Origin: Rhizodiscina lignyota
Lineage: Eukaryota > Ascomycota > Dothideomycetes > Aulographales > Rhizodiscinaceae
Assembly (NCBI GenBank): GCA_010015805.1
Contig: ML978125.1
Span: 1,922,001 to 1,986,000 of the forward strand
Length of the DNA: 64,000 nucleotides
Direction: 5' to 3'
The translations under genes and the position numbers were made by a program. The notes under the pieces are model-generated. The model did not search any database, had not been told where the DNA came from, and saw only the letters and a list, made by a program, of their open reading frames with translations. Position 1 is the stretch's first letter. Every line of letters starts with the position of its first letter. Positions 1,844-64,000 of this stretch are shown piece by piece.

Positions 1844-3541
1844 ATGGAATTTGAGGTCTCCTACGACCTTGAAAGCGCGGAGCAATTCTGGGACGGTGCG
1901 ACCCCGCCACTTCATCTATCTCCTTCTGCCTGCTTGTTATAGTAATGAAAGTAACTGACCTTACTCGGGAGAGACAGAACTCGACGATATAGTCTCCGCG
2001 CACGCGGGCTCGCACGAGACCATCGACAATGCACTGCGCTCATACTTGCGCTTCACCAGCAACTACAAGGGTATGAGGGGCACGCGAGTCTTGGAGATTG
2101 GCTATCGAGAGAGTGATACTGATGCGTAGTGAGCAGATGAATATTTACAATCGGATTACGATGTCGCGCGATGCACGTACAAGCTGCTGGAGTCGGCGCT
2201 GTTCAAGGCGCACATGGAGTATGTCCGGCGGCAAATCGTGTATGGGCTCTTGCAGGTGAGTTCTTGGGCGATAAGTGCTCATAACAGTCAAAGGAAGAGG
2301 ATAGCTGATATCTACACCAGGAAGACGAGTCGCAGACCCTCCACCTCATAACCGCGATCCTCCTTTATGACGGCCGCAACCACGATGAGACATTCCAGAT
2401 GATGCAGACAGAAGGAGCATTCCCGCGTCTGATTGAATTGATAAGGAGTCATGGTATCAACGGCTCCGAAGTTGATCGCGACCTTCACAGGCTACTCCTT
2501 GATCTACTATACGAGATGTCACGGATGCAGCGCTTGACATGGGAGGACCTCACATCCATCAATGACGAGTTCGTGCTCTATCTATTCCAGATAATAGAGG
2601 AGCTGAGCGATGATGCGAATGATCCCTATCACTATCCTGTGATCAGGGTCCTGCTTGTGCTTAACGAGCAGTATATGGTCATGTCGGCAACCGGTGCACC
2701 AATAACGAATCGGGTGGTCAAGATGCTTTCATCGCATGGAAATTCTTACAAGACGTTTGGAGAGAACCTCATCCTACTATTGAACCGCGAGTCCGAGACG
2801 AGTCTACAGTTACTGATACTGAAATTACTTTATCTGGTTTTCAGTTCACAGTCGACGGCCGAATATTTTTATACCAACGACCTGCACGTTCTGTTGGATG
2901 TCATTCTGAGAAACCTGCTGGACCTCCCTGGCCCTCTAGAGGACTCTTCGGACGGAAAGACGAGTGGGATGCTTCGACATACTTACCTGCGCGTCTTGCA
3001 CGTCTTGCTGGCGCACAGCCAGCTCAAGCGACCAGGGATGGGGTACAAGCGCGATGAAGTGTGCAAGATTCTGCGACTTCTAGGCTCAAACTACAACCCA
3101 GAAGCCAACGGGCATAGTGAACAGTACATGAACTCAATGAGCTCCGGCATGTTCGCGCACTTCGCACCCATTGACCCTACGACACTCCGTCTCGCTCGGC
3201 GTTGCGCGGCTGTAGACTGGCTAGGTGATGCGGTAGGCGAAAAGGAGACAGTCTCTCCAATTCTGACAATCAGTCCGGCAAGCAGTTTCCCCACGCCGGA
3301 TCTAAATGCGGCAAATGACTCGACGACGAACGGGAACGGTAATGGTGCAGGGCAGAAAGAAGTCGCGCGGAGACACTTACTTGGAATGAGTTCACCACAG
3401 GGAGGCGAGAGTGCACTGAGTGTCATTGAGATGGCAGAGCAGAAAGAGAAGCCTGGTGTCCTGAGTCCGAGTCGTATTCGTAATGCGAATGGGTTGGGAG
3501 TTGGAATGGAAACTGGAATTGCAGAAGCGGAAGCTGCGTGA
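1844..3541 (+). CDS. LDB17: LDB17/SPIN90-like actin and endocytosis regulator
   Basis: Ldb17 is the fungal SPIN90/NCKIPSD relative; it acts at cortical actin patches during clathrin-mediated endocytosis, and SPIN90 proteins activate Arp2/3. Predicted exons are 1844-1895, 1978-2070, 2137-2255 and 2321-3541, giving 494 residues. Each junction restores conserved sequence: MEFEVSYDLESAEQFWDELDDIV across the first, DEYLQSDYDVARCTYKLLES after the second, and VYGLLQEDESQTLHLI across the third. The first donor is GTGCGA rather than GTRAGT. The conserved helical domain runs through about residue 310 (motifs SSHGNSYKTFGENLILLLNR, YFYTNDLHVLLDV). The tail is low-complexity and Asn/Gly-rich; it lacks an obvious SH3-binding polyproline run. 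Family assignment is firm; the exact exon 1-2 join is inference. Confidence 0.85.
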
Positions 3542-5483: not shown

Positions 5484-6236
5484 GATGATAGAATTCGAAA
5501 TTGGTCTGGCGAACTTATTGAAGGATGGATGAGTATTATGTGCTCTTGATTCTATTTAGCGTTGACCCATCCAAGGCGGACCCGAACAAACCCGACAGGG
5601 GGCATTCACTCCACATCACCACCTTCCTTCCTACATATATACATTTACCCATCAATGTCTAAGATGATAAACTATCCATTTTACAAGTCCCATGCTCAGC
5701 ATATCGTTGACACTTCTTTGCTTCGGTACTCTCGTCCTTTCAAGCTCGAGATGGGTTGTGTGGGAGCTATTCGGCGCAGCCGAAGGGTAGCAAATCGACG
5801 ACAAATATCATACGTTAATGGTAAGGCTGGCAGAGAGGGGCTGCAAAGGCAACTACTTGGCTTCATCATTGCCGCGTCAACGTGCAGAACTGGGCTTTTC
5901 AGCTCGGGTGCTTCAGCGAATGATGAGTTCGTGGAACTCGTGGAACCGTGGCTGGAGGGAGCCGTGTAGTTCACAAGGCATCCTGAAGACTGCAAGGCTG
6001 TGAGGCTGAGCGCAAAGAAGCAACTGCAACGTCTTATTTCTGGCTCAAGTTTTCTTTCCTACTGTTCAGTTATACCAATTTGACTGCTCTACCTATGTTT
6101 CTGCGACGAAGTCATATCTCGTTGCAATTCTCTCATTCTCTTTCGCAAAAGAAGCAGATTTCATGGATCATCGTAGTATCAAATTTCTTCTTCTACGCTG
6201 AAGGACCGCATCGGATGAGACTGGGTTGACACGACA
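5484..6236. promoter_or_regulatory. Divergent spacer between BNA6 and the HeLo-like/Rho fusion gene
   Basis: Must contain both promoters. A frame open from ATG 5655 to 5969 (about 105 codons) shows no family motif, and I do not call it a gene. No clear TATA box or known operator was identified. Confidence 0.5.
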
Positions 6237-9200
6237 ATGACGGACCCTCTATCAATAACTACCGGCGTCCTCACTCTCCTTGGTGTGACTTACCACGTAG
6301 GCTGCGAGTTGAAGAAATTCCGCGATGGCGTGGCTGCCATTGACGCGGTCATTGGATCACTCATTGACGATGTCGATGCCCTTCACAATGTGCTGGAAGC
6401 TATGAAAGAGACCTTTGGCCAGCCGGATACTGTGACAACACTGAATGCTACCGGACACATAGGCAATCATTGGCGAAACATGTCTCGAAGCCTAGGCGAT
6501 GCTGAGGGAACCTTGTCTGATCTTTTGCTTGTGCTTCAAGATGTCAACAAATGTACGACGTTCCTAGATGGTCCTCGAAAACAGCTTCGCTACAAAGCCA
6601 TGTCAGATCGGATTTCGCGATATAGCAACCAGATTTCATCCTACAAACAGACATTGCAATTGTCCCTGCAGACCTTGGTTTTGTGAGCTTTCCATAATCT
6701 TACTAACGTGCCGTGCTGACTCTTTCGTAGATGGAACCAAATAACGATACGAGCAACGACGGATAACATCATGCCTGGTCTCGACGATTTGAATAAAAGT
6801 ATTCGAAAGATCGCGCTTCAGATCACAACGAGATTAGAGAAACTGGAATTACTTCAAGGTGGTGCAGTGGAAGCCCAGACGAAGATTGAAGCTGTCGTTA
6901 TGTCGAACTTGAGAGAATGTGTCCGGTCGTCCGCGACAATCGTGTCGTCAGCATCAACGATTATGGCTAAACTTAGCGACAGGCCTTCAACGACTTGTGA
7001 ATCTGACGTTGCAGACCTTCTCCCACCGCAAAATAATCACCTCGTGGGAAAATGGATGGCGTCAGTACCGGTCTTCGAAGCCGACTCTTTGGATGTTGAA
7101 AGCCCTCCCCAAGTTCCACCCAGTGTCATCGCTTCACAAGTTCTCGAATATCCAGAGGAAGACGCGGACTCGGACTCGGACCTCGAGAACGAGCTTGCTC
7201 GTGTCCTGCTAAAGCACGGGAAAGATCAAATGGAGGCGGGAAATTACGAGAGGGCGGAACGAAATCTTCGGAACTGCTTATCTCGCCTCGCCAGACCTTC
7301 TGGTTCAAGTCCAATCTCTAAGAATGACGTCCGCAGTCTCCTGGTAGATTCTCTCATCAAACAGAGCAAGTGGCATGATGCTGGACAAGAGTTACGCAAA
7401 CAGCTTGCTTGGGACGAAGGAGTCAGAGAGCGGGGAGATCAGAAGCGTCTCCTGGACATGGCTCTTCTTGTAGATGTGCTCATGACACAAGACAAGCTCT
7501 CTGAGGCGCAAGTCTATGCTCGACGTCTGCTTTCGGAGTATCGGGAGCTTGGGGATCGTGGCCACGATGGCGTTGAACTCACTTTGCGGACCCTGGTGAG
7601 GATATGTCAGGCAGAAGGCAACAACGAAGATGAGGAAGCTTACTCTTCAATGCTCGTGGTGTTCTTTCAAGAGTCTGTCAGTGGTGCACCTGAATTAACC
7701 GCGCAATACCCACCTGAGGATAGAGGCGATCTAGCGGTGTCGGAATTTCCAGTTCCTCCTTCCCATGAAGTCACCGGGAGATTGGCATTAGCACCAGTGA
7801 TTGAGGTCACAGAAGAACAGCCACAAATCCATGGGATTGCCGAAGAGGTAGTTTCCAAACCCGATAGAACGCGCCGATTCTCGTTTGAACCCGAGCACTC
7901 GAAACCAGTACAAGCAGTTGATGGGGGAGAGCAAAACCAAGAGCAAGGTGGGAATCAACACAACTCTGCAGAGACTTCTCAGAATTCAGATTCCAACTTC
8001 CAAGCGTTTGGAGAGGGCCCGAAGTTGACGCGATATGATAGCAAGCAGTTCACGGTAAGCTGAATTGGGGTTTCTGCCTTGAGGTTGTATCTCAGCTGAT
8101 GACATATTCTTTCCCTGCAGATGCCACAAACTATCAAGTCCACTGCAGATATGCGGGAGCAAATCCATGCTCCAAAATCTGCATTACCTACCATCAGCCG
8201 ATCCCCATGGTTGAAAGTGAACAGGCAGTTCCCTCTCAGACGGCAGCGTGGAACGTCCCTCGAACTTCCACCGGTTCTGCGGTCCATCTCAGAAGGAGGC
8301 CTGGGCTCCAACGTACTACCGGACCACGTACCCATTGGCACAACAAAGGTTACAACCATTCAGGCGTCTGAGTTAGATCCCATAGATGCTCAGAGGATCG
8401 AAGAAAATGATACTCAACCTCCTACGTCAGGGGAAGCAAGGATAAGTGCTGACTGCAGTCTCTCGACAACTAGTTTCAACACATTTGAAACTCCCCGGAC
8501 GAAATCCAGAAGAGTTGAATTCAGGAGGAAGCTGCTATGTATTGGTGATCCGCTTTGTGGAAAGACATGCTTATTGAGGTTTGTCATTTCTAGCAACTAC
8601 TTCCGCTGTTTACTAACAGTGTCAATTCTCCAGTCGACATGCAAAAGGCTCCTACGCAAGGGTACGAGGAAATCGGGGAGATGACCTCTGATGTTACTCT
8701 AACAATATCGCAGTGGATGAGTACGACCGCCTTCCAGAACTACATTTGCAATGTTAGTATCGCCTCTATGACAGTCGAGTTTGCTTTCTACGACACAAAC
8801 GGCGTGATGGATTACGACCGAATACGTCCGATGTCGTATCCGAACACAGACATCATCCTATTATGCTTTACAATTAACGAGCCCCACGCCCTATCAAACA
8901 TTGAAGAAAAAGTGAGTAGTGGGTATAGTAACGTTGCTGCTTATGCTAAGAGGACCATCAAGTGGGTAGACGAAATTCGCCGCTACCTAGACGGCGTCGA
9001 CGTCGTGCTCGTTGGGAATATGTCGGACCTCCGGGATGATCCAGGACAGCGTCAAGAGGATATGATTAGTACCCAAGAGGTGATTATTTGCCCCAAATGG
9101 CCAATTCTGTGCTAACATCTCCAAGGCTGAGGAATTCGCGGAGCGCATGGGTGCTCTTAAGTACTTCGAATGCTCCGCTAAGACCGGGGAGGGCGTAAAG

Positions 9201-9320
9201 GAACTTTTCGAATTTGTAGCGATGAATTCGATCATCAAAAGTCGCAGCCGAGCACAGAACAGACGAAGCTTCAACCGCCTGTTCAGGAAGTCGATGCAGT
9301 CCCTGTCGCTTCGCTCGTAG
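6237..9320 (+). CDS. HeLo-like N-terminal domain / TPR-like / divergent Rho GTPase fusion protein
   Basis: Predicted exons are 6237-6682, 6731-8054, 8121-8578, 8634-8661, 8714-8911, 8963-9079 and 9126-9320, giving 921 residues. Residues 1 to about 140 (start MTDPLSITTGVLTLLGV) resemble the HeLo-like N-terminal domain of fungal STAND/NLR proteins. About 290-460 is helical, Ala/Leu-rich and TPR-like (GKDQMEAGNYERAERNLRNC). About 460-720 is probably disordered. From about 727 it is a Rho-family GTPase: P-loop GDPLCGKTCLL (732-742), switch I TTAFQNY, G3 DTNG, then RIRPMSYP, EKWVDEI, VGNMSDLRDDP and ECSAK. Splicing out exons 3-6 aligns ungapped with RhoA/Cdc42, which supports the exon model. The catalytic Gln is Val (residue 783), the NKxD Lys is Met, and the basic tail has no Cys, so no CAAX. 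The final two introns end in AAG. Role unknown; a cell-death or signalling function is inference. Confidence 0.78.
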
Positions 9321-9526: not shown

Positions 9527-11128
9527 TTATGGGAATCCAAAGCCCTCTGGGAAGTGGAAACCTCCACCTCCGCCGCCTCCTTGTGCGTGGAACTTGAAAT
9601 GTTGTTGTCCACCACCCTGCTGGAAGAAGAACTGTTGGCCTCCCTGACCGCCGAAGGGGAACGGGCTTCCCTGGAACGGATGACCACCTTGTTGGCTCAT
9701 TGGGTCGTTCGGATCGTCCCCCTTGTCGAACCTTGCTTTCAACTCTTCGTCTCCTAGCACCTCATAAGCTTCGTTGATGGCAGCCATCTTCTTCTCTGCT
9801 GCTTCCTTCGTAATTCCCTGCGCCGCAGCTTTGTCGGGGTGGTATACCTTCGACAGCTGGCGATAGGCGCGCTTGATCTCGCGTTCATCAGCATCCCTGG
9901 ATATGCCAAGGACTTTGTAGTAGTCCTTCTGTTTCGAGCGCTTAAGCAGCGTTTGCGCCTCGTTGAGCAGCTCTTGGAGCCGATGAGAACCCTGATGGTG
10001 TTGTTTTGCATCGTTGAGTGTGCGGATAGCGGCCTCAAAATCGTCTTCTGCGATCTGCTGCTTCGCCTGAGAGAGTGATGCTGATAAAGAAGTTGGGTTG
10101 TACTCGAGAGTTTCTCGGCAGTATGTCTCCGCGCGCTTGTGGTTGTTCATCTCCATGTACGCCTCGCAAGTAAGTTCCACGAGCATGCCGTAGAGACCTT
10201 CTGGTGATTTTTCGTGGATGTATCCCTGGGTCCGATATTCTTTGCTGTCCTCCTTCACTTCATCCAGCAGCCCCGGCTCCGCCCCTTGTTTGGCCAACAG
10301 CTTCACCGCAGCGTTGAACTTCCTCTCTTCCATGTTCTTCCTCACTTTCTTGATCTGTTTGTCAAGTGCCTTCTCCCGCCGCCTCAACGCCATGCACACC
10401 TTGCTGTCCGGGTCACTTTGCAGACACTTTGCGATCTGTTGCAGCGCTTTCTCCGTCTCGCCAAGGGAGAAGAAGCTCTCTGCGCTAATCTGCAGGTGGG
10501 GCTCAGTATTTCCAGAATTTATCTGCAGAACGTGCTGCAAATCGCTGATTCCTTCAGCAACTTCTCCCTTTTCGAACCGACACCGTGCTCTTAATTTTCG
10601 TAATTCCAGCGCGCCTCCAGCGACCATGAGCGCCACTCCGGCATGCTGCAAACATCCATCCCAATCGTGCGACTTGACAGCTTCCTCTGCTAACACTACT
10701 GCGCCTTGTGCTTCTTCTAGTTCAGCGACCTCAGAGCCCCCTGTCTTGCCCGCCGCCTCATAGTCCTTCCGTGCAGCTTCCCAATCGCCGCTCCTGCTCT
10801 TTAGCTTGGCCCGTTGTAATAAAGCTCCTTCGAAATCTGGTTTGATAGCAAGTGCTCTATCGAAGTCTTGCCGTGCTTGGACATTGCGGCCAAGGGAGAG
10901 GTAGGCGGCGCCGCGCTTGAAGAGGGAGAGGTAATTCTGCGGATCGCGTGAGATAGCGATGTCGAAGTAGGTGAGAGCATCTTGCGCATTGCCTTTCCCA
11001 AGCTCCGTACTAGCAGAACTGAGGAGCTGGTTAACAGGCGTATCGGCGGGTATATCAGCGGCCGAGAGCGCTGCGACTGTTGAAATGATCGCAGCGCTGA
11101 GCGCAATGCTGATGAATGGAACGCGCAT
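9527..11128 (-). CDS. ER-lumenal DnaJ/TPR co-chaperone (P58IPK/DNAJC3 type)
   Basis: Single-exon 533-residue protein. An N-terminal hydrophobic segment (about residues 5-21, ending near AALSA) looks like a signal peptide, placing it in the ER lumen. TPR units follow (about 30-390; for example [16 protein letters not shown] and [18 protein letters not shown]). The J domain covers about 401-470, with the HPD triad at 430-432 that stimulates Hsp70 ATPase, so the expected partner is BiP/Kar2. The C-terminus (about 480-533) is a Gly/Phe/Gln/His-rich tail, and there is no KDEL-type signal. Metazoan P58IPK helps BiP deliver or fold misfolded clients during ER stress. The gene converges with the Rho fusion and is divergent from POL2. 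A GACGTCAC (bZIP-like) site lies about 127 bp upstream of the start. Confidence 0.9.
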
Positions 11129-11385
11129 GATGATTAAGGAATGTCGAGTGGGAAAGAGACGCTCGAATAATGCCTCCAGGAGAGGTTTCTATGAGGTTGT
11201 GTCCATGTATATATGAAGGTGGGTGAGAATTGGACACATGTCAATTCACAATGGGACGTCACTCCCAAAGTCCCGAGTTATTGAGGCTGAAAGCGGCAGG
11301 GACAGGTGGCGTCTCCTGTGTTCTGATCGGGCTTAGCGTTTCAGCCACTGCAGGGATATTTCGTGTCGCGTTAATCGCCATCGCG

Positions 11386-53708: not shown

Positions 53709-54692
53709 TCATGATGCACCAGAAACAACATCCACCAATGCCTTCATCGCACGTCCTAAGTCCCCAAGTGTATCCGCCACTAGTGGCCGTCCGGTTTGTA
53801 CGACCGCCTCGGTTGCTCCATGTAGCAGCTTCAGGCGTGAGCGAGCTTCATCTCTCTCCTTACTAACGCCAAGTAGATCTTCCTGCAGCTTTTGCTCCTG
53901 AATAATCCATCCGGACTTGAACGCGCCCAGGGTCGCAATTCCCGACAGTGCTGAATTCAGTTTTGCCTGAAGATGATCGCGACTTTGGATAGCAGCATCA
54001 CGTTTCTTGATTGCGCTCTCCTCTCCAGCTTTGGCATTCTTCGTCTCTTCCATTACTTCTCTCGCCTTCACAGCTTGGTTCGAATCAAGTTCGCTCTTCA
54101 ACCGCTGAATTTCTTTGGAGAGGTTCCGAGTTTGTATGATCTTCGCTTCGAGAGCGCTGTCGGTGGACTGTAGCTTTTCCGAGAAGTTCTTGACTTCAGC
54201 CTTTTCGTGATCGAGCGAGCTCTGCAGCAGGGCTTTATCCGCGGTGTGAGTTTTGACTTGTTCGTTGAGTTGCAGAATAAGCTTGTCTTTTTCAGCCGCC
54301 TCCTTACTCTGTGCATCATGCGCAGCACGAAGAGTGTCCAGCTGCTGTGTCGCAATTTGCCAGTCAAGGTCCAGCTCAGTCCTGATCTTTTTGAGTCGCA
54401 GACTTGTAGCCTCCCAATCCTGCGGTTTACTGTTCGCTTGAACATGGGGTGCCGTCCTTTTAACTGGACTGGTCTTAACCCTTTTGGGTTGTGGATCGGT
54501 GTTGTCCTCCTCTGATGCTGTAGGGGCATCAGTAGCGTCCGGTGAAGGAAGAGCTGCCTTCCTTTTGGTTGGAACCGGCTTGATTTTCTGGGGCTGTTGA
54601 GCTGTGGTCTTTCGATTCGATACCGGTGCGACAGAAGTACTCTTGCTCGGTGCAGATTGGGACGTCTTTGGTTGTTGCTTTGTACGGGCCAT
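53709..54692 (-). CDS. Coiled-coil protein with a histone-H3-like N-terminus (MARTKQ)
   Basis: A 327-residue single-exon product of unknown family. After Met removal the first five residues, ARTKQ, are the same as histone H3 residues 1-5. The next about 90 residues are basic and Pro/Ser/Thr-rich with Lys-Arg clusters (VPTKRKAALP, PQPKRVKTSPVKR) that look like a bipartite nuclear signal. Residues about 95-260 are coiled coil (LDTLRAAHDAQSKEAAEKDKL, EVKNFSEKLQSTDSALEAK, IQRLKSELDS). The C-terminus (LGDLGRAMKALVDVVSGAS) is helical. Layout suggests a nuclear, chromatin-associated scaffold, which is inference only. The next gene, SHMT, is divergent. Confidence 0.68.
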   Translation of the reverse strand: MARTKQQPKTSQSAPSKSTSVAPVSNRKTTAQQPQKIKPVPTKRKAALPSPDATDAPTASEEDNTDPQPKRVKTSPVKRTAPHVQANSKPQDWEATSLRLKKIRTELDLDWQIATQQLDTLRAAHDAQSKEAAEKDKLILQLNEQVKTHTADKALLQSSLDHEKAEVKNFSEKLQSTDSALEAKIIQTRNLSKEIQRLKSELDSNQAVKAREVMEETKNAKAGEESAIKKRDAAIQSRDHLQAKLNSALSGIATLGAFKSGWIIQEQKLQEDLLGVSKERDEARSRLKLLHGATEAVVQTGRPLVADTLGDLGRAMKALVDVVSGAS

Positions 54693-55808
54693 GGTCTCTC
54701 AAGAGATGGCGGCTTAGAGGTGATTCAAAAGAGAAATTGGGATGAAAGAAGTTTAGTTGCAAGCAGGTACGATACTTGAGATTTGATCCACAAGCGAAAG
54801 TAGTCATAAAGGAAGTTGAAAGTTGACTTGCTTGCGTCCAGAGGGCAAGAGCACTATCTATGGCCTTAGCTGTTCTGGATAAGGGGGAACAGTGCAGAGG
54901 AGAGAGTGTGTGTTCGTGGAGTACATGAGGCGAAGGAAGGGAGATGTAAGAGTAGAAGGTTGATGAAGTAGACTGTAGCACCGATGTTCGGCCAGCTCCC
55001 TACTGGAATGTTGGGAGCAGGAGATCAGCAGGCCTGGAGCGAGGTCGCTTCTCGTGGTTTCAATTGAGATGAGAACGGGCTGCCTCCCAGTACCAATTGC
55101 TTCCACTAGCAGATCACAGTGGCTACAGGACCTCTACACACAGGAAAGCAACTGAGAGTCCCATACCCACTACGATTTCACCTTCGTCTAGTCGTAGCAT
55201 CGAAGATTGACGACCTATCATTGAAAATGAATGTTCCATAGTCTTCACATAAAGCACAGCAAGATACGGAGGATACGAAAATAATCGAAGGCAGAAGAAC
55301 CTCTCCCTCTGTTTCCTTGGGCAACCGTTGGAGAGAACTTGTCCGTGGGGGAGATCCGAGTGGAATTTCGACTCTGCGGGCGACCATTTCTTGAAAGTAG
55401 GTGTGTTAGATGAGGCGCTCTTGTTCGACTAACTTGGGCATTGTGAAATGAAGATGATACGTTTATCTATCACAAAGATTGGCAATAATTTCGAGCTGAT
55501 TAGTCCGAGGTCTTCAGCGACGCCTCTATAGCCACAATCGCGTGAGGTTGATGATGCCAGGTGGTGGAACGGCCCACGGCCTTTCGGGTCTTCCGACTTT
55601 CAAGCCACAGCTGCAGGGGTGTATGCAAGTCTGGGTCGATCGCTAGGGAAGCGAAGCAACCCTGGTCAGTGGCTTGAGTGGCTTAAGTGCGGGAGCTTCC
55701 ATTTTTTCGACTCACACTGGAGGGGACCTTCCCCATCTTTCTTAAAAGACGCCCTGAGACCTCAAATCGCCCACCAGACAATTCAATTGTATACCAAAAT
55801 TACTCAAG
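54693..55808. promoter_or_regulatory. Divergent spacer between the ARTKQ protein gene and SHMT
   Basis: About 1.1 kb with only short frames, none with motifs. It must contain both promoters. CT-rich sequence near 55705-55745 and 55795 fits an SHMT leader. No RNA gene seen. Confidence 0.5.
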
Positions 55809-61384: not shown

Positions 61385-62518
61385 CTATGGTTGGTGATCG
61401 AAGCTACCGTGCTTGACCTTGTCCCTAGCGGTAATAGTGTAATTCCTGAAAAATGGAGGTCCACAGATCCTCCTTCTTTCCTCCGTTGTAAGTGTATATT
61501 CCTCGTCTGTAATCCCCTTCATTTGGCAATACTCTCGAAGCCACTGGGCACAATTCTGCCCATGTGCTGTGGAAGGCCTCACCCAGCGAATCGTCGTCTG
61601 CAGCACATTCCGAGCGGGAGCAGTAGCCGCATCATCCACGATTCTGGGTAACGCACCCAGCAATGTGCGCATATCCCTACCTTGCGGAGCGCCGAATATC
61701 CAACTTCTTTGTCCGAAGACATTCCGAAGATCTATAACAAGCGTTCGCTTACCCTCATCTTGTTCGGTAGCCTGACTTTTATCTTGTTTGGAAGCCTTCC
61801 TCTTTTCCCGTTCGAAAGCTTCCTGGATGCAAGACTTGACTACGATCAGCGCTGCCTCTTGGACTCTGTCTAGTGCGGTTTGAGTATCTGCATATGCGCC
61901 AGATCCACCGCCGACATATCCTCCGAGTAATGCTACGACATCAAGTTTCACATTGTGGATGGAGCGCAGACCATTCTGTGTGGTACATGGCGCCGCCGTA
62001 TTTCCTGTGAGGGGCATCAACACATGATGCGTTTCATTCCACACATGTTCCCTCGTCGTTGCGTTACAAAATCGACAGGTAAAGGTCGCCTCCTTAAACA
62101 TAATACCCCAAAATCCATTGAACATAGCATGGCTTACAAGTGATAGAGGAGGCAGAGGGATCCGCCTATGCAGGCGTTCTGGAACGAAGAGCGACGGGGC
62201 AAGAGGCTGTTGATAGAGCGACAAGTCAAGAGGTTGTCCAACGAGCGACAGGATAAGAGGCTCCCGATAGAGCGACAGGGCAAGAGGTCGCCGATAGCGT
62301 GACTCCACAATATGCGAATCAAGGTCTTCAATGTAACGCTCATAAACCTTATTGCGAAGCTCGGCTGGCAGCCTCGCAAATGGGAAATGTTTTGACGAGG
62401 TTTTCGTAGACGACATTTTAGTCACGTCGGTTGAAGAAACAGCAGCGTCCGATTCAAATACTGACCGCCTTCCCTTTTGCTGCTTGCTTCTTTGGGCGGC
62501 TATGGCATGCTCGCCCAT
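61385..62518 (-). CDS. LPAELRN F-box-like protein with a 9-residue tandem repeat
   Basis: A 377-residue product. I start at ATG 62518 (MGEHAIAAQ), the first ATG in frame; the frame stays open slightly upstream without another ATG. Near residue 50 it has LPAELRNKVYERYIEDL, the F-box-like opening shared by many dothideomycete proteins, probably a protein-protein adaptor domain. Directly after it, four copies of a 9-residue unit of the form PLxLSLxxx are encoded by 62189-62296. Later it shares blocks with its neighbour (62737-63705): ATFTCRF versus MTFNCRY, RTLVIDLRNVF versus RTIIIDLRDFF, and AQWLREYC..GITDEEY versus AQWLEHHC..GVEWEDY. The two are tandem paralogues; biological role unknown. A Cys pair (CRFC) precedes the middle. 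Confidence 0.72.
   Translation of the reverse strand: MGEHAIAAQRSKQQKGRRSVFESDAAVSSTDVTKMSSTKTSSKHFPFARLPAELRNKVYERYIEDLDSHIVESRYRRPLALSLYREPLILSLVGQPLDLSLYQQPLAPSLFVPERLHRRIPLPPLSLVSHAMFNGFWGIMFKEATFTCRFCNATTREHVWNETHHVLMPLTGNTAAPCTTQNGLRSIHNVKLDVVALLGGYVGGGSGAYADTQTALDRVQEAALIVVKSCIQEAFEREKRKASKQDKSQATEQDEGKRTLVIDLRNVFGQRSWIFGAPQGRDMRTLLGALPRIVDDAATAPARNVLQTTIRWVRPSTAHGQNCAQWLREYCQMKGITDEEYTLTTEERRRICGPPFFRNYTITARDKVKHGSFDHQP
62189..62296. repeat. Coding minisatellite: four tandem 27-bp units
   Basis: Units at 62189-62215, 62216-62242, 62243-62269 and 62270-62296, all beginning GAGCGAC (plus strand) and containing AAGAGG. Length 27 is a multiple of 3, so copy-number change keeps frame. On the minus strand each encodes nine residues of the PLxLSLxxx type. 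Confidence 0.88.
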
Positions 62519-62736
62519 CGTAAGTCGCGAAAAGCAGCCCAAGAAGCCGAAAGAGAACCCGCCGCAAAGGGGTTAGTTAATCACAGGCGGAAAGAGTTTG
62601 GTAAGCGTCGGAACCTTTGCACTTTGGTATGCACTCTTGCCTAATGTATGCTAAATTTGTCCAGTGTAGAGCTCGTCAACCTCACTTCCATTCGCCTCAC
62701 AAATCCTTTCAATCCTGACCGAGCCTCTTTCTCTGC

Positions 62737-63705
62737 TCACGTCAGCGTTCCGGAAGCACTGCCGCTGCGACCGATCCTTCCTGTGAGAGTCGTCCAGTAA
62801 TCCTCCCACTCCACACCACGGGTGGCGCAATGATGCTCGAGCCATTGTGCGATTGCTTGGTTCGCGGCCGGGATGGGGTAGTTCCACCGAACTGTCACGT
62901 CCAGGCGGAATTTCTGCTTGGCCTCGACAATACTCTCAATCAGAGAGCACAGCAAGTCTTGCTGCGTCGGCGCGCCGCTGTTGCCGGGGAAGCTGAACTC
63001 CTTGACATGGCGCGTGAAGAAGTCGCGTAAATCGATGATGATGGTCCGGTTCTTCGGCGGGTCTTCCTTGGGCTCATGAGAATCTCTGGACTTCAGAAGA
63101 TCTCCCTGGAACTTTGTGGGACCTCCCTTGATCTTTGGACGAATCGCTTTAGCACTTGGAGCTTCTTTTTTGCGCGACTCCAGAGGCTCGTTGTACTCAG
63201 ATAAAGCAGAGATCCTAACAACTTCACAGATTCTTTTCAGTATCTCTCGAACGACTCCCGGATAGCTCGCGTCGTCTTGAACTCCTTTAAACGCCACAAC
63301 GTCTATGCTCACTTGCTGGGCTCTTTTGAGACTATTGAGCGTAGTCTGCTGGCGCGAAGAACCGTTGTATAGCGATTCCTGGGTGCTGTGGGTGCTACGC
63401 TCGTACTCAGCGCTTCCAAGGGTGTAAGTGTACCGGCAGTTGAACGTCATCTGGCGAAATATGATGCTCGCGAGCTCACTGGAGACCTGTTTGTTGACGC
63501 GTAGCATTGGAGGGGAAAAGAGCTGTCGCATGAATGAATCGTCGCCGCCGAAAGTACGAAGGACAAGAGATCGTGGGTTGCCGTGTTTTGTACCCCGCAA
63601 CGATATCTCGTGGAGGTAGCACTCATAGATGGCATTGCGAAGCTCAGCTGGGAGGTCAAGGAAGGACTCGATCTTCTGAGGCTCCATGGTCGTTGTCTTC
63701 TCCAT
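62737..63705 (-). CDS. LPAELRN F-box-like protein, paralogue of 61385-62518
   Basis: A 322-residue single-exon product. It opens MEKTTTMEPQKIESFLDLPAELRN-AIYECYLHEI, the F-box-like domain. It contains MLRVNKQVSSELASIIFRQMTFNC, common in this family, then a Lys/Pro-rich low-complexity loop (about 185-225) and the conserved RTIIIDLRDFF strand. The C-terminal block AIAQWLEHHCATRGVEWEDY matches the neighbour at 61385-62518 in position and spacing, so the pair arose by tandem duplication. It lacks the 9-residue repeat. Such proteins are numerous and fast evolving in this class; substrate or partner unknown. ATG 63705 is the first in frame and precedes the domain by 17 residues. Confidence 0.75.
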   Translation of the reverse strand: MEKTTTMEPQKIESFLDLPAELRNAIYECYLHEISLRGTKHGNPRSLVLRTFGGDDSFMRQLFSPPMLRVNKQVSSELASIIFRQMTFNCRYTYTLGSAEYERSTHSTQESLYNGSSRQQTTLNSLKRAQQVSIDVVAFKGVQDDASYPGVVREILKRICEVVRISALSEYNEPLESRKKEAPSAKAIRPKIKGGPTKFQGDLLKSRDSHEPKEDPPKNRTIIIDLRDFFTRHVKEFSFPGNSGAPTQQDLLCSLIESIVEAKQKFRLDVTVRWNYPIPAANQAIAQWLEHHCATRGVEWEDYWTTLTGRIGRSGSASGTLT

Positions 63706-64000
63706 CGATGTGCGTATACAGGTTAAGGTTCGAGAGGAATGTGCGAGGATTTTAAACGATTCCTAGGTGTTTGTGGATTGGCTGCGTGATGTGTTTGGTT
63801 TGGTGTTTGGGTTCAAAGTTTTCGAAGTATCACATGCTCCTTCCCGCGTTCCCGTCAAGTCACTGTGAACCTTAAGGCTGACGGCTGGCAGTGGCTCGGC
63901 CCGCATCCCTCCAACCTCCACCGGACTCGAGATATCAAGCCAGAATTCCTTGGAGATCGATGGCCATGTGGCGGTGCTCTTAATCAAGTCCGTTTCCGGA
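63706..64000. promoter_or_regulatory. Upstream flank of the last LPAELRN gene
   Basis: 295 bp to the window edge, upstream of the minus-strand gene starting at 63705. No gene or clear motif seen; a G/T-rich stretch lies at 63770-63815. Confidence 0.4.

Follow-up and report, generated by a model that had tools for sequence, protein, structure and literature searches.

The window, a 64,000-nucleotide stretch of Rhizodiscina lignyota DNA, contains on its forward strand a predicted gene (6237..9320, +) of seven exons and six introns that encodes a protein of 921 residues. The protein begins with a HeLo-like domain and ends with a Rho1-like G domain and its tail; between the two lie a degenerate TPR-like segment and then a polar linker of considerable length. 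We rebuilt the exons independently (6237-6682, 6731-8054, 8121-8578, 8634-8661, 8714-8911, 8963-9079, and 9126-9320), and the spliced reading frame runs for 922 codons including the stop, with no internal stop codon; this bears out the claim of a sequence-only reading that the locus holds one intact seven-exon gene. The nearest in-frame stop 5' of the start ATG is at 6216, and introns 1–6 (48, 66, 55, 52, 51, and 46 bp, respectively) all begin with GT and end with AG. Five of the joins, those of introns 1 and 3–6, are supported by homology, as a match to Pfam family PF17111 crosses the exon 1/2 junction and an alignment with yeast Rho1 is ungapped over the joins of introns 3, 4, and 5 and carries on past intron 6. 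A strict donor/branch/acceptor pattern is found in introns 1 and 2 only; introns 3–6 fall outside it and are placed on the basis of the yeast Rho1 alignment. Retention of intron 5 would stay in frame and add 17 residues without a stop; the absence of a gap at this point in the Rho1 alignment led us to model the intron as spliced out. Across the window, strict consensus introns number 30 on the forward strand and 16 on the reverse strand against 30.55 expected per strand. As this is no enrichment over random sequence, the window-wide scan was not counted as evidence, and a local test of intron 2 was kept. Codon bias, trained on the other ORFs of the window, is 0.149 bits per codon in the HeLo-like domain, 0.174 in the TPR segment, and 0.172 in the G domain.

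The fusion of these domains into one chain hinges on a single predicted intron, intron 2 (8055..8120, +), which lies within a linker that has no homology. Its donor reads GTAAGC and its acceptor CAG, with CTGAT as the branch-like site; it conforms to the strict pattern and joins the frames on either side. An in-frame site with the full pattern occurs in 0.785% of random 120-nt stretches (n = 20,000, with the dinucleotide make-up of the window), in a test that was devised after the site had been seen. If intron 2 were not spliced, translation of exon 2 would terminate at 8061-8063, and exon 3 starts with an ATG at 8121; both features are what would be expected of two adjacent genes, the first encoding a HeLo-TPR protein and stopping at 8063, the second encoding a GTPase from the ATG at 8121. 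Codon bias in residues 591–722 is also compatible with two genes, being close to zero, neutral rather than positive, yet the best of the six frames there; intron 2 itself has a frame that scores just as neutral. Because this protein stretch and an intron frame are both neutral, codon bias leaves the choice between one gene and two undecided. Against two genes, however, the gap between them would be just 57 bp, and these 57 bp sit inside a full-pattern, frame-joining intron of the kind counted in the post hoc test above. We regard a pair of adjacent genes as very unlikely.

The HeLo-like N-terminal domain (residues 2–187; 6240..6845, +) encloses intron 1 (6683-6730) and is recognized by PF17111. 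When the N-terminal 235 residues are scanned alone, the match covers residues 2–187 with an E-value of 6.4e-9 and 35.9 bits against a curated cut-off of 27.2; in the whole chain, it has an E-value of 1.9e-7 and 31.1 bits, with its best stretch at residues 116–180. Nine shuffles of residues 1–235 were made, and none of the six that were scanned matches PF17111 at E ≤ 1, one shuffle giving a weak match to an unrelated Pfam model (E 0.049). A HeLo-like N-terminus had been proposed from the letters of the sequence, and the score above the curated cut-off together with the shuffles supports it at the level of sequence. The family is named PigL_N in the Pfam version used here, Helo_like_N in PMC9815663, and 'Fungal N-terminal domain of STAND proteins' in PMC10512319. 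A sequence search of the PDB with the N-terminal domain returns no convincing match. Residues 1–148 folded alone from the single sequence give an all-helical model with three long helices at low confidence (best pLDDT of 67.3), and in a Foldseek search with this low-confidence model, the best 50 of 794 PDB matches at E ≤ 10 are assorted helical bundles, with none at E ≤ 0.001 and no MLKL or HET-S among them. The most hydrophobic 19-residue stretch of the protein begins at residue 5, nearly tied by another beginning at residue 31; in HeLo and HeLo-like domains, the extreme N-terminal helix is described as needed for membrane targeting and cell death (PMC12881547). In addition, PF17111 is found in proteins that are distinct from NLRs but whose genes lie next to NLR genes (PMC9815663), and for this reason the domain does not by itself make a protein an NLR.

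The middle of the protein contains a degenerate TPR-like segment (residues 296–457; 7170..7655, +) of four helix pairs. In the whole chain, the TPR_12 model matches residues 394–451 at E 0.0019, below its cut-off, and with the segment alone the match improves to E 1.2e-4 and 22.7 bits, also below the cut-off of 30.1; a sequence match to kinesin light chain is weak (E 0.018). An AlphaFold model of residues 270–459 alone, built from the single sequence, contains four helix pairs with a mean pLDDT of 75.7 in the best of five models (46–76 over the five). Used as a Foldseek query, it finds the TPR domains of LGN and kinesin light chain as its best PDB matches (E 8.4e-4), with a low TM-score of ~0.42. 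The predicted tandem helix pairs and these structural matches agree with the TPR-like middle that had been suggested, and since the profile scores stay below the cut-off, we describe the segment as a probable, degenerate TPR. It is followed by a polar linker (residues 463–720; 7671..8510, +) that contains intron 2 and has a hydrophobic fraction of 0.28, and no Pfam family matches residues 460–720 at E ≤ 1.

The C-terminal Rho GTPase domain, also claimed at the outset, is supported by sequence (residues 727–889; 8529..9221, +; exons 3–7). The Ras model PF00071 matches it at E 1.3e-36, and the Roc and Arf models score above their cut-offs on the same residues, more weakly than PF00071. Among the 60 best of 747 PDB matches, yeast Rho1 is the best (E 1.3e-49), with TC10 at E 3.7e-36 and the top Cdc42 chain at E 8.1e-36. 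Identity to yeast Rho1 is 78 of 169 aligned residues (46%), and the alignment has two gaps, of four and two residues, both in the insert region.

The same alignment reveals that the two residues central to GTP hydrolysis are both replaced: Rho1 G19 (RhoA 14) by Pro734 and Rho1 Q68 (RhoA 63) by Val783, where RhoA numbers are taken to be those of yeast Rho1 minus 5. In the altered P-loop (residues 732–739; 8544..8567, +), Rho1 A20 (RhoA 15) next to the proline is replaced by Leu735, and elsewhere the changes are A66 to Asn781 (RhoA 61) in G3, K123 to Met838 (RhoA 118), Y39 to Met754 (RhoA 34), P41 to Thr756 (RhoA 36), and E45 to Gln760 (RhoA 40). Most of the nucleotide-binding frame is kept, including the P-loop CGKT, switch I Thr757 (Rho1 T42, RhoA T37), N761 (equivalent to RhoA N41), the G3 residues D779, T780, and G782 (Rho1 D64, T65, and G67), the G4 residue D840 (Rho1 D125), and the G5 SAK at S874–K876. 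The C-terminal tail (9222..9317, +) lacks a prenylation signal; there is no CAAX cysteine at the end of the chain, the last 25 residues contain no Cys, and the last 30 contain nine K/R and no D/E.

In Ras, the position-12 change G12P leaves hydrolysis near normal, and it is consequently the loss of the Gln that carries the argument for a hydrolysis deficiency here. The RND proteins and RHOH, in which Gly12 and Gln61 (Rac1 numbering) are both replaced, are GTPase-deficient and lack the classical switch mechanism (PMC8305018), and the equivalents of both residues are likewise replaced in this protein. From these residues, the G domain should be able to hold nucleotide but not hydrolyze it in the usual GAP-assisted way; its appearance is that of an atypical Rho module, either GTP-held or a pseudo-GTPase. 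In G4, Thr or Leu is reportedly favored over Lys among fungal Rho proteins (PMC8146680), and given that preference the K118M change may be unimportant. No relatives were found in the viral and prokaryotic collections, and the altered residues may be conserved or may reflect drift. Changes at several normally conserved positions could also signal that the fusion gene is in decay and its G domain no longer functional. Such decay is highly improbable in our view, as 922 codons stay open across seven exons and codon use is coding-like in the HeLo-like, TPR, and G-domain segments.

These results bear on the proposal, made in the sequence-only reading, of an NLR-like layout in which a GTPase fold supplies the nucleotide switch. 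The observed part of this proposal stands, in that HeLo-like, TPR-like, and Rho elements are present and neither NACHT nor NB-ARC is among the seven Pfam families that match the whole chain at E ≤ 1; the switch role is weakened by Pro734, Leu735, Asn781, Val783, and the absent CAAX. A receptor of this kind, with a cycling Rho GTPase in place of NACHT, would account for a single chain that combines repeats and a nucleotide-binding fold with a HeLo-like N-terminus, and for the retained P-loop GKT and switch I Thr. However, because the hydrolysis residues are replaced in an RND/RHOH-like pattern, a Rho fold acting as an NLR-type switch is argued against. Lacking NACHT and NB-ARC, the protein falls outside the definition of a STAND/NLR, although one of its domains is typical of that class. 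The architecture differs as well. The order in NLRs is effector, NOD, and repeats, whereas here it is effector, repeats, long polar linker, and GTPase, so that the TPR-like segment precedes the G domain and the C-terminal repeats that follow the NOD in STAND/NLR proteins are lacking. Furthermore, STAND oligomerization depends on helical parts of the NOD, which a Rho fold does not have. We judge a cycling-switch receptor unlikely, and infer from the pattern of the G domain that it is more readily explained as a docking or mimic domain that does not cycle than as an NLR switch.

The surroundings of the gene were analyzed by scanning 17 window ORFs (seven near and ten further away) with Pfam, out of 45 of at least 180 residues, the DNA polymerase epsilon ORF being scanned in part. 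The nearby ORFs belong to the SPIN90/Ldb17, quinolinate phosphoribosyltransferase, TPR-DnaJ, DNA polymerase epsilon, HIT zinc finger, amidohydrolase, and glutamine synthetase families, and those further away include hemerythrin, DEAD helicase, rhomboid, short-chain dehydrogenase, SMC, PH, and ubiquitin hydrolase families; two of the 17 have no Pfam match. No NACHT, NB-ARC, HET, patatin, or PF17111 domain is found at E ≤ 0.001 in the 17 ORFs, and on this basis we see no sign of an NLR cluster or an adjoining NLR partner. Neither Rfam at its gathering thresholds nor a tRNA scan returned anything for the window.

Several other ORFs of the window deserve mention in their own right. Upstream of the HeLo-like/Rho gene, the ORF at 2309-3541 (+) carries a SPIN90/Ldb17 leucine-rich domain (PF09431, E 5.7e-48), an actin-related family. 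The adjacent gene at 9527-11130 (-), convergent with it, is rich in TPRs, carries a DnaJ domain at its C-terminus, and is presumably DNAJC3/P58IPK-like. Two adjacent ORFs at 61385-62572 (-) and 62737-63762 (-) have an 'LPAELRN' stretch in common and may be a tandem pair; the latter also has a weak F-box-like match below the cut-off. The ORF at 53709-54698 (-) encodes 329 residues with a K/P-rich start and, by eye, a coiled-coil-like middle, and has no Pfam match at E ≤ 0.001.

The composition of the protein suggests a single fungal signaling protein in which a HeLo-like domain is controlled by a TPR docking surface and by a Rho module that is deficient in hydrolysis and attached through a flexible linker. 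We favor this reading tentatively and put its chance of being right at somewhat less than even. Under such a model, the HeLo-like helical domain would provide membrane targeting or self-association, and the TPR docking surface and the atypical Rho module would restrain it from behind, a form of autoinhibition. Without cycling, the Rho module would most likely bind GTP or a partner, and toward Rho effectors or regulators it could act as a docking, mimic, or possibly bait domain. When a partner binds, or when that binding is disturbed, the HeLo-like domain might be released or clustered at the membrane, with a putative link to cell death.

The protein could instead be a scaffold or morphogenesis protein of a Rho pathway with no immune or cell-death role, in which PF17111 simply self-associates. 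The identified neighbors are mostly housekeeping genes, with no NLR-type domain among the 17 ORFs scanned, and extended or large fungal GTPases are known, such as Rho6 of Trichoderma and the Big Ras GTPases (PMC8146680). As the literature links PF17111 to NLRs and to executioner proteins (PMC9815663, PMC12881547), we find a role confined to scaffolding possible but rather unlikely. Another possibility is an integrated decoy, in which the Rho-like domain baits foreign Rho-modifying or Rho-binding factors and its disturbance triggers the HeLo-like domain. A Rho mimic without the catalytic Gln or a prenyl anchor that keeps the equivalents of T37 and N41 (T757 and N761) would suit such a role, mammalian pyrin guards RhoA (PMC11781737), and in Sordariales 185 non-canonical domains were counted in 378 NLRs, some of them proposed integrated decoys (PMC12258605). 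No fungal case of a Rho bait appears in the literature consulted, however, 'gtpase' and 'small gtp' are absent from the main text of the Sordariales survey, and the parallel with pyrin is a loose one because pyrin does not bind RhoA directly (PMC11781737); we consider a decoy quite unlikely. More specific still, and distinctly improbable, is a NACHT-free fungal immune-type sensor in which a non-cycling Rho mimic acts as a bait or a GTP-held brake on a membrane-active HeLo-like domain. If this were true, interference with Rho signaling would directly trigger regulated cell death, and the protein would do in one fungal chain what the pyrin-RhoA guard does in mammals.

A tblastn search of the protein against the 64-kb window returns the gene itself only. 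Pattern scans of viral contigs yielded two stretches for residues 150–459 and four for the G domain, and a scan of prokaryotic genome contigs with residues 1–148 yielded 32; no stretch was confirmed as a relative, and as these searches covered viral and prokaryotic collections, they say nothing on the spread of the gene in fungi. Among the matches listed, a HeLo-like/Rho fusion is named nowhere in the titles and abstract beginnings of the open-licence literature. The Sordariales NLR survey gathered its proteins by their NB domains (PMC12258605), and because such surveys start from NB domains, NACHT-free architectures with another G domain would escape them. The gene appears to join a fungal immune or cell-death-type domain to a Rho domain missing the residues for switching itself off, an unusual combination. 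If real and conserved, it would link HeLo-like domains to Rho signaling in one polypeptide and allow the idea that Rho proteins are monitored in fungi to be tested directly.

The preferred reading, a HeLo-like domain under the control of TPR and Rho modules, can be set against several known systems. With the fungal HeLo-like NLRs and executioners, such as HELLP, the protein shares the PF17111 N-terminus and a hydrophobic first stretch, and kinesin light chain TPR structures have served as the model for the TPRs of fungal NLRs too (PMC4986451). Unlike HeLo-like NLRs, it has no NACHT or NB-ARC, its TPR-like segment comes before the nucleotide-binding fold, and a Rho domain sits at the C-terminus. 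Its likeness to the fungal Rho1 family lies in the end-to-end alignment with yeast Rho1; in contrast to that family, it lacks a CAAX, carries G14P and Q63V, and has an insert region six residues shorter than that of yeast Rho1. As 111 surveyed fungal Rho proteins span 151–338 residues, with a CAAX in 99 (PMC8146680), a 921-residue protein is outside the range of that survey. The replaced Gly12 and Gln61 equivalents are held in common with RND and RHOH, but those are small single-domain animal proteins, whereas this is a multidomain fungal one. The Big Ras GTPases and Trichoderma Rho6 resemble it in their unusual size or N-terminal extension and in their altered G motifs; Rho6 has an N-terminal extension of ~130 residues and an altered G1, and the Big Ras GTPase TBRG-1 has a role in secondary metabolism as well as in conidiation (PMC8146680). 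By its description there, TBRG-1 has G1, G2, G3, and G5 with a poorly conserved G4, whereas here G1 and G3 are altered, and the available description of TBRG-1 and Rho6 mentions no HeLo-like domain. Finally, p190RhoGAP also contains degenerate G domains inside a large multidomain protein; its pseudoGTPase domains belong to animal RhoGAP proteins and have nucleotide-binding defects (PMC5593906), whereas the Rho1-like domain described here retains most of its nucleotide-binding frame.
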